This document shows positions 2,981 to 15,001 of a DNA stretch of 28,258 nucleotides, one piece after another. The notes below the pieces were generated by a model, which saw only the letters and a list, made by a program, of their open reading frames with translations, did not search any database and was not told where the DNA came from. Position 1 is the first letter of the stretch; each line of letters begins with the position of its first letter. Source of the stretch: a virus; the IMG/VR virus record IMGVR_UViG_3300034138_000012, positions 1 to 28,258 of that record; one strand, given 5' to 3'. Made by a program: the position numbers and the translations under genes.

Positions 2981-3008
2981 ACGTTACTCCCCAGCGTGCC
3001 TAAGTGCC
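2981..3008 (-). promoter_or_regulatory. Putative leftward promoter with shared 15-mer box
   Basis: Read leftward, the 15-mer GGCACTTAGGCACGC (3008-2994) is followed after 7 nt by TAACGT (2986-2981), which fits an actinobacterial -10 pattern TANNNT. The identical 15-mer lies before the other operon head at 4299-4285. Transcription would begin about 25 nt before the ATG at 2949. There is no clear -35 of TTGACA type, so the box may be a phage-specific activator or sigma site. Confidence 0.5.
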
Positions 3009-3069
3009 ACTAAGGGGATGTGACCTACGCCAAAAATTTCTGCGGAACTACGGCCGGCCGCTCACGGCC

Positions 3070-3101
3070 AAAAAATTTCGGGCAGTCACCCTGCCCGAAA
3101 T
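3070..3101 (-). terminator. Intrinsic terminator of the first leftward unit
   Basis: On the minus strand a perfect 11-bp stem (ATTTCGGGCAG with CTGCCCGAAAT, 5-nt loop) is followed by a run of six T. This is a textbook intrinsic terminator, placed directly after the stop codon of the gene ending at 3113 and before the next promoter-like box. It separates the unit 4232-3113 from the unit starting at 2949. Confidence 0.88.
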
Positions 3102-3112
3102 CTCATGGCACG

Positions 3113-3364
3113 CTAGCGGGCAGCCCTACGCGCATACACCCTGTGCTCATTACCGACCCGACGGACAAGCGCATCGAAACCCGCGCCGTACTCACGGCCC
3201 GCATTGATCCGCTCCGCGTGCGACTCCGCCCGCGCCGCCCGGTCATGCCGCGCCACAATCGCCCAGTGACCACGCTTCACCGTGAGCGCCGCGCCGATTT
3301 CCTCACGCGTCGGAACCGACGCGTCATCCATGCCGGGCGGATCTTCGAAACTGAGCGAACCCAT
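3113..3364 (-). CDS. Hypothetical protein, 83 aa
   Basis: The start at 3364 is preceded by GGGAGGCAGTGTT. The first 25 residues look flexible and acidic (FEDPPGMDDASVPTREE). The rest is basic and helical (HWAIVARHDRAARAESHAER and DALVRRVGNEHRVYARRAAR), which could bind nucleic acid, though no known domain is recognised. It is the last gene before the intrinsic terminator at 3070-3101. Confidence 0.7.
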   Translation of the reverse strand: MGSLSFEDPPGMDDASVPTREEIGAALTVKRGHWAIVARHDRAARAESHAERINAGREYGAGFDALVRRVGNEHRVYARRAAR

Positions 3365-3393
3365 AACACTGCCTCCCATAGAACCGACACAGA

Positions 3394-3454
3394 CTGTCTG
3401 TGTGGCCAGTAAGCCGCGCGTCACACTCGCGCGGGAAGCTGGTCACACAGTCAG
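3394..3454 (-). ncRNA. Intercistronic structured repeat, family B copy 1
   Basis: Three nested stems are visible. The outer is CTGTGT with ACACAG (3398-3403 with 3445-3450), extended by CTG with CAG across a mismatch. The middle is CCAG with CTGG (3406-3409 with 3439-3442). The inner is CCGCGCG with CGCGCGG (3414-3420 with 3428-3434), around the loop TCACACT. The TGA stop of the upstream gene forms part of the outer stem. The first strand also lies in a 17-bp palindrome at 3387-3403. Confidence 0.65.
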
Positions 3455-3684
3455 GCGAAGAACGCGCGGACCCATTCGGGCGTAAGTGCCGGACCGAACC
3501 GCTCCGGATCGGCCACGCGTTCCCCACCCGGACTATCCGGAGTGCACATGACAACCGACGGGCCATAGGCCGTGCCCACGAACCAAACGACCTTCGGTGC
3601 CTCACCCGGGTAGGTCACCTCAACGGTGTACGCAAACTGCCCGGCCAACCCACCCGTGCGCATGATCTTCCCCAACTGCGGCAT
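3451..3684 (-). CDS. Hypothetical protein, 77 aa
   Basis: The start at 3684 is preceded by GGGAGGCGTC. The product looks like a small beta domain (QFAYTVEVTYPGEAPKVVWF) followed by a loop and the short helix TPEWVRAFFA. No family is recognised. It lies between the two family B elements, its stop codon embedded in one and its ribosome site following the other. Confidence 0.72.
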   Translation of the reverse strand: MPQLGKIMRTGGLAGQFAYTVEVTYPGEAPKVVWFVGTAYGPSVVMCTPDSPGGERVADPERFGPALTPEWVRAFFA

Positions 3685-3714
3685 GACGCCTCCCGTGACT
3701 AGCAGCCGCTCACA

Positions 3715-3775
3715 CTGACTGTGTGGCCTGTAAAGCGGGTGTCACACTCACCCGCTAAGCAGGACACACAGTCAG
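3715..3775 (-). ncRNA. Intercistronic structured repeat, family B copy 2
   Basis: It has the same plan as the copy at 3394. The outer stem is a perfect 10 bp (3715-3724 with 3766-3775, CTGACTGTGT with ACACAGTCAG). The middle stem is CCTG with CAGG (3727-3730 with 3760-3763). The inner stem is AGCGGGTG with CACCCGCT (3734-3741 with 3749-3756), around the identical loop TCACACT. The middle and inner stems differ from copy 1 but stay paired. The upstream gene's TGA stop is again inside the outer stem. Confidence 0.7.
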
Positions 3776-4035
3776 AGACGCGCGTACAGGGCAGTACAGG
3801 AGCCGCACATGGGCACATCCCCGTACGGCATCCGCATGAGGGACGTAGCGTCATTCCCGCAACTGACGGAGTAACCGCACACGGGAACGTCAGTGAGGGC
3901 ATCGGCAGGGAACGGCCCCAAAAGGTCATCCGACTTACCGTCATCCAACAAGTAACGGCCCGTGGGGGTAACCGCGCTAACCCATGCGGTAACGCCAGTG
4001 AGGGTTTTGACGCGGTCACCGATCAGGAATGCCAT
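3772..4035 (-). CDS. Hypothetical Cys-containing protein, 87 aa
   Basis: The start at 4035 uses the GGAG formed by the end of the upstream gene (stop at 4038). The N-terminal half has the look of a small beta-barrel (FLIGDRVKTLTGVTAWVSAV, then GRYLLDDGKSDDLLGPFP), similar in style to KOW/SH3-like folds. The C-terminal half has four cysteines, VCGYSVSCG and MCGSC, that could bind zinc. Function unknown. The fold is an inference from pattern only. Confidence 0.72.
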   Translation of the reverse strand: MAFLIGDRVKTLTGVTAWVSAVTPTGRYLLDDGKSDDLLGPFPADALTDVPVCGYSVSCGNDATSLMRMPYGDVPMCGSCTALYARL

Positions 4036-4037
4036 GG

Positions 4038-4232
4038 TCAGTTACTCCATTCGGTCGGGCGGAAACCGCCCCGGGTAAGCCACTCGTCAAGGGCAGTGAA
4101 ACTGTCGAGCATGTCGGACACAGTGCGGTTACTGACCACGCAGAACGACGGGTGGTCCGTGTCGTTGTCCATCTGCCGCTGCGCGTAGGCCATAGCCTCA
4201 CGCAGTACACGCAGTGCCTCGTTCGGGTCCAT
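4038..4232 (-). CDS. Hypothetical helical protein, 64 aa; first gene of leftward unit
   Basis: The ATG at 4232 follows AGAGAGGCACACACG. The product is mostly helical (NEALRVLREAMAYAQRQMDN, then MLDSFTALDEWLTRG) and ends in EWSN, whose codons supply the ribosome site for the next gene. No family is recognised. It is the promoter-proximal gene of the leftward transcription unit ending at the terminator at 3070-3101. Confidence 0.72.
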   Translation of the reverse strand: MDPNEALRVLREAMAYAQRQMDNDTDHPSFCVVSNRTVSDMLDSFTALDEWLTRGGFRPTEWSN

Positions 4233-4272: not shown

Positions 4273-4299
4273 AAGCTACCCGCTGCGTGCCTAAGTGCC
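4273..4299 (-). promoter_or_regulatory. Putative leftward promoter of the 4232-3113 unit
   Basis: GGCACTTAGGCACGC (4299-4285, leftward) is followed after 6 nt by TAGCTT (4278-4273), a TANNNT-type -10. The 15-mer is identical to the one at 3008-2994. Transcription would start about 34 nt before the ATG at 4232. The conservation of an exact 15-mer at both operon heads, with a -10-like hexamer at nearly the same distance, is the main support. Confidence 0.5.
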
Positions 4300-14881: not shown

Positions 14882-14927
14882 GCACAGACCGCACAGACGA
14901 ACCTACCTTGCACCCCTCTAAGGCGCG

Positions 14928-15001
14928 TAGCGCGGGCGGGATTTGAACCCGCGACCTCCGGGTTATGAGCCCGTTGAGCTACCGAACTGCTCCACCGCGC
15001 A
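14928..15001 (-). tRNA. tRNA-Met (CAT), initiator type (fMet)
   Basis: A complete 74-nt cloverleaf without CCA. D arm is GAGC/GCTC, anticodon loop CTCATAA, T arm GCGGG/CCCGC with loop TTCAAAT, discriminator A. It shows the bacterial initiator marks: no Watson-Crick pair at 1-72 (T against T), A11-U24 in the D stem, and three G-C pairs closing the anticodon stem (GGG/CCC). Pair 27-43 is A against G, which departs from the usual. It is transcribed leftward, toward the other tRNA-like element. The host CCA-adding enzyme would be needed. Confidence 0.9.

Follow-up and report, generated by a model that had tools for sequence, protein, structure and literature searches.

Stop-anchored hairpins between the small genes of a phage operon, and their possible processing by host RNase III

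Introduction

Bacteriophages T7 and SP82 have RNase III sites between cistrons. An RNase III processing site is a near-continuous helix of about two turns or more, and the sites of T7 early mRNA are long, irregular hairpins with internal loops, which lie between consecutive early genes and are alike in shape while differing in sequence. The enzyme processes polycistronic mRNA in bacteria, according to a Streptomyces paper (PMC2936110). Repeated boundary elements are also described in cluster K mycobacteriophages (PMC3203893): the 13-bp start-associated sequence (SAS), GGGATAGGAGCCC, lies a few nucleotides before the start codon, and the 17-bp ESAS are inverted repeats whose departures do not in general support RNA pairing.

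We analysed a 28,258-base virus record (IMGVR_UViG_3300034138_000012; the whole stretch is called the window below). It belongs to an uncultured bacterial virus with portal and tape-measure genes, and its terminase is 49% identical to that of a mycobacteriophage group including Stank and Murphy. The left part of the window consists of small genes on the minus strand. Two of the gaps between them hold the hairpins B1 and B2 (family B), which resemble T7-type sites in shape and place; unlike those sites, the hairpins here have conserved loops and start at the stop codon, and their cleavage would be a prediction. As for SAS and ESAS, the cluster K paper (PMC3203893) likewise has repeated elements between non-structural genes, directly before a phage-specific start-site sequence. 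There, however, the sequences are unrelated to those here and the departures generally lack pairing support, whereas here boundaries of one kind are occupied by several element families and departures in B, A and D keep the pairing. The SAS GGGATAGGAGCCC is absent before the starts that follow B1 and B2, where GGGAGGC is found instead. Arthrobacter phage Tank (L439), which has a weak relative of one of our operon genes (77 aa) in the region, is like the window in having a hairpin in each folded intergenic gap. Its hairpins differ from B in their short stem (8-11 bp), nearly fixed sequence and lack of anchoring at the stop codon; 5/5 gaps folded contained the short hairpin GGGTCGGGTAACCGACCC, either exactly or nearly so.

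Results

The operon and its two hairpins

The minus-strand operon 4232..3113 comprises four genes, encoding 64, 87, 77 and 83 aa in that order; B2 separates the second gene from the third, and B1 the third from the fourth. The features are as follows.

4038-4232, minus: 64-aa gene, first of the operon; relatives in L088 and L010
3772-4035, minus: 87-aa gene, upstream of B2; its TGA (3772-3774) is inside the B2 outer stem
3715-3775, minus: hairpin B2; outer stem of 11 bp, mismatch, 4 bp, internal loop, 7-8 bp, loop AGTGTGA
3688-3694, minus: Shine-Dalgarno GGGAGGC after B2
3451-3684, minus: 77-aa gene, between B2 and B1; its TGA (3451-3453) is inside the B1 outer stem
3394-3454, minus: hairpin B1; plan as in B2, with one A-A mismatch in the outer stem
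3371-3377, minus: Shine-Dalgarno GGGAGGC after B1
3113-3364, minus: 83-aa gene, downstream of B1; 65% identical relative in L088
3067-3109, minus: terminator-like hairpin and T run at the operon end (from sequence, inverted repeat I6 and a fold z of -5.6)

The hairpin at 3067-3109 is absent from the list produced by a consensus terminator scan. Two exact copies of GCGTGCCTAAGTGCC (2994-3008 and 4285-4299, plus strand) lie upstream of two leftward gene groups, and may be a common promoter or operator box. The 64-aa gene matches PHROG 865 (label HNH endonuclease, 1.7e-16) despite its very short length. Elsewhere in the window a tRNA-Met gene (14927-15001, minus) lies antisense amid structural genes, and tRNA matches on the same strand occur in L004, L008, L009, L010 and L013.

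Structure and covariation of B1 and B2

Both copies were recovered where a preliminary description had placed them, each with the upstream stop codon in its outer stem and each followed by GGGAGGC, as had been noted. The 7-nt loop is indeed identical in the two (TCACACT on the plus strand). The middle stem changes from CCAG/CTGG to CCTG/CAGG (1/4 pairs) and the inner stem from CCGCGCG/CGCGCGG to GCGGGTG/CACCCGC (3/7 pairs), with all four changed pairs still formed. The earlier statement that the stems change while pairing is kept was right in kind, its extent being four compensated pairs (A-U to U-A, C-G to G-C twice, and C-G to U-A) and not whole stems. Similarly, the outer stem described as common is present in both copies, but is imperfect in B1, whose A-A mismatch falls at the A of the TGA.

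B1 and B2 align over 61 nt without gaps and differ at 12 positions, nine in paired and three in unpaired columns; of the nine, eight account for the four compensated pairs and the remaining one breaks an outer pair in B1. Shifting the partner strand 1 to 4 columns in either direction left no more than one compensated pair. Random placement of 12 substitutions gave at least four compensated pairs in 9 of 200,000 trials, and random letters at fixed changed columns did so in 7,854 of 200,000. The chance probability of the unchanged loop is 0.20 when the whole element is considered and 0.07 for the inner part.

On the minus strand the folds have z values of -6.7 (B2) and -5.5 (B1), with 0/200 shuffles as stable; among 14,099 minus-strand stretches of 61 nt, 5 match or exceed the stability of B2 and 148 that of B1. 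The antisense strand is more stable than the sense strand in both copies (z -8.4 and -8.6), so that B alone does not tell which strand matters. The helices of the two elements are 23 and 21 bp long with arms of 27 nt, a length suited to an RNase III site, and the outer arms of B2 are fully palindromic. We conclude that the structure of B1 and B2 is real and well supported; the mechanism proposed in the Discussion is what we infer from it.

We also observed that the outer 3' arm CACAC can pair alternatively with GTGTG in the apical loop or just downstream (3370-3454 and 3690-3775, minus), which makes mutually exclusive folds possible.

Searches for further members and for known RNAs

Model R3, run over 45 sources (564,271 bases), found B members in the window only, the next best match having an E value of 0.82. 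Pattern scans of viral_contigs and genome_contigs gave no further member among the matches listed. In the related loci, the B pattern had 239 matches outside this record, all with inner stems of at most 4 bp. A possible weak third copy in the window was not matched by R3:

2151-2232, minus: intergenic hairpin, with heptaloop GGTGTGA in one fold

Models R1 and R2, made for families A and D, respectively (see below), miss B1 and B2, and R3 matches no A or D copy. A mobile repeat was rejected, as no additional B copies were found among the matches listed in either the pattern or the model searches.

At the gathering threshold, Rfam release 15 found only a tRNA in the window and had no match to B1 or B2; a permissive scan of 3300-3800 gave three matches, all far under the gathering score. 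A known Rfam RNA was accordingly rejected for both. An intrinsic terminator was rejected as well: neither hairpin is followed by a U run (2 T in the next ten bases for B2, 4 for B1), and the terminator scan called no terminator-like site at either. A genome-wide scan for long hairpins was uninformative, there being too many of them in this G+C-rich DNA. Protein scans of viral_contigs returned no relatives of the 77-aa and 87-aa genes, and an alignment of 6 (A1) used as a query returned only five records already in the comparison, with none in genome_contigs. Among open-licence papers on intercistronic phage hairpins, we found no description of these elements.

Other hairpin families at the same kind of boundary

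A terminase search gave 80 loci as a comparison set, and comparable leftward operons were read in six records (the window, G002, G006, G007, G008 and G011). Junctions were taken from a simple gene caller, and some starts are doubtful. At most junctions in the six records the genes either overlap or nearly touch, or an element is present; in the stretch read of another relative, G022, the genes touch with no visible element. The elements are similar in size, and by sequence they fall into families A (YTTCTAGCC..RRGTGGC), C, D (GATTCAGC..ATGGATTTACC), a single E, and B. The remark in the preliminary description that B occupies the same genomic place as family A thus extends to five families in six phage records. 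The window contains three family A elements.

707-769, minus: family A element
1030-1096, minus: family A element
1374-1436, minus: family A element

Families A and D show covariation. Among the 11 copies of family A, from six records, two-sided changes were seen in 6/14 counted pairs, with a covariation score of 0.303 vs 0.164 for shuffled alignments (0/500 as high); in D and E together (7 copies, four records) they were seen in 10/24 pairs, with a score of 0.347 vs 0.171 (0/500 as high). Kinship alone can lift scores above such shuffles; slid controls were also far lower for both A and D. Certain internal-loop letters are invariant in both families. Over the 45 sources (564,271 bases) the A and D models matched the sites from which they were built. 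Weak extra matches were a partial, A-like one in L088 (E 0.1) for the A model and, for the D model, one D-like match in L017 (E 0.39) as well as matches to the antisense strand of D sites. Among the best 25 of 95 matches to the family A pattern in viral_contigs, judged by fold and P1 match, convincing copies came only from known records. A gap element, F (CCCCG-GCCCGCTGGTAG...GCCGGGCAGGC-CGGGG), is found repeatedly towards the ends of leftward operons (L086 about 1430-1500; L013 about 2490-2560, minus; L088 about 3905-3950).

A shared plan with exchangeable families

We compared 27 junctions, corresponding to a set of 28 elements minus the F element of G002. A single-domain hairpin with at least 18 pairs was present in 26/27 junctions vs 572/1620 gap shuffles, and the hairpin started at most 4 nt from the end of the stop codon in 24/27 vs 403/1620, a contrast that is overstated because the junctions were picked for a visible element. 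The distance from the hairpin end to the start codon was 15 to 30 nt in 27/27.

The ribosome site that follows is specific to the phage. GGGAGGC occurs ten times in the window, eight times on the minus strand, and six of these copies (at 694, 1015, 1361, 2158, 3371 and 3688, minus) serve exactly the six genes preceded by an intergenic hairpin, one of them after the weak hairpin 2151-2232. In G002, AACGGAG serves 8/8 hairpin junctions (families A, C and D) plus one gene that has no hairpin.

At two orthologous genes the family itself is exchanged. In L088, a family A element (1827-1888) stands ahead of the relative of the 83-aa gene, in the place taken by B1 in the window; another relative of this gene, in G007, starts 16 nt after its neighbour with no element. 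A relative of the 77-aa gene (48%, L004) is flanked by two D elements (2400-2459 and 2087-2145), which stand at the places of B2 and B1 in the window. Such swaps are consistent with recognition of shape and not of sequence.

The isolated non-Watson-Crick pairs in the helices of the 28 elements, read on the sense strand, are 21 G-U vs 3 A-C, of which B contributes 0 and 1, respectively; many of the elements are related, and the number of independent events is smaller. The G-U excess points to the sense RNA as the relevant molecule for the set as a whole. Family B is a member of this wider class of stop-anchored boundary hairpins, and has so far been seen only in this record.

Discussion

What the preliminary description had observed at B1 and B2 is confirmed, and its interpretation is supported in part. 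Our leading reading, held tentatively, is that B1 and B2 are intercistronic boundary hairpins, the most likely fate of which is cutting by host RNase III. The operon 4232..3113 would be read as one minus-strand message. Each hairpin would fold once the stop codon had been passed, filling most of the gap between the stop and the ribosome site, and host RNase III would cut the long irregular helix, leaving each gene on its own message with structured ends, which may influence its stability. In addition, newly terminated ribosomes would be prevented by the hairpin from slipping into the following gene, for which a strong GGGAGGC of its own is available; the hairpin possibly blocks ribosome scanning as well. 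The boundary reading is supported by the lack of a U run after B1 and B2 together with the separate terminator-like hairpin at the operon end, by the four compensated pairs along with the covariation in A and D, and by the uniform geometry over five families in six phage records. Several features count against RNase III. RNase III can act without reading sequence, yet sequence recognition is suggested by the conservation of the heptaloop in B and of the internal loops in A and D; B shows no sense-strand signal of its own and folds better as antisense; and there are just two B copies, in one genome. Furthermore, no RNase III gene was found in the 12 phage records searched, so that a host enzyme must be assumed.

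The hairpins might instead act purely on translation, as insulators that stop post-termination scanning from the stop codon to the next start, with each gene translated independently and no cutting involved. This has some plausibility, though we consider it unlikely. It agrees with the position of the hairpins at the stop codon in 24/27 junctions and with the Shine-Dalgarno sequence that the next gene retains; moreover, a review links predicted structure right after the stop codon to lower coupling (PMC12548453). Insulation, however, needs neither a conserved loop sequence nor 18-28 bp, and many other junctions in these operons overlap and have no element. The loop, 7/7 identical while the stem below it changes, could be a site at which a phage or host RNA-binding protein reads AGTGTGA in B, or the invariant internal-loop letters in A and D, and so controls the downstream gene. 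We regard such a protein as improbable, since the loop conservation is weak by the chance values given above and differing families at one junction would require differing proteins. In the preliminary description, ribosomes terminating at the TGA would unfold the outer stem, and this would turn the next gene up or down. Both copies do have the stop codon within their outer stem, and the CACAC arm, once released, would be able to base-pair with GTGTG downstream or in the loop. Masking 13 nt from the stop codon, in a thermodynamic model only, nevertheless moved the energy for opening the ribosome site in opposite directions, from 4.8 to 4.3 kcal/mol in B2 and from 3.7 to 7.9 kcal/mol in B1. For the 23 elements compared (the 28 minus F, the partial A of G006, and one each of G007 A, G011 C and G011 A), it went down in 9, was equal in 2 and went up in 12, and we consider a switch of this kind very unlikely.

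A site read in DNA, with inverted repeats forming an operator or a phage promoter, as has been suggested for the ESAS of cluster K, would suit the place before a phage-specific ribosome site, the palindromic outer arms of B2 and the folding of the antisense strand. It conflicts with the excess of G-U over A-C on the sense strand of the whole set. Also, ESAS departures generally lack pairing support (PMC3203893), whereas 4/5 changed pairs in B are compensated; a DNA-level site therefore seems to us highly improbable. A broader proposal, to which we give only a small chance, is a modular code for cistron boundaries, in which a fixed-size stop-anchored hairpin, drawn from at least five exchangeable families, is followed by the phage-specific ribosome site. 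The hairpin would fold the gap out and bring the stop near the next start, and the terminating ribosome would determine whether the next gene is passed on or insulated, in family B through competing GTGTG/CACAC pairings.

If boundary hairpins cut by host RNase III are indeed what B1 and B2 represent, this phage group would separate its small genes by structural RNA punctuation, in which shape and place are kept while the sequence family is exchanged. The elements would provide a naturally occurring collection of ready-to-use gene insulators, and the way in which expression of a single gene is set within a phage polycistronic message would become testable with reporters.
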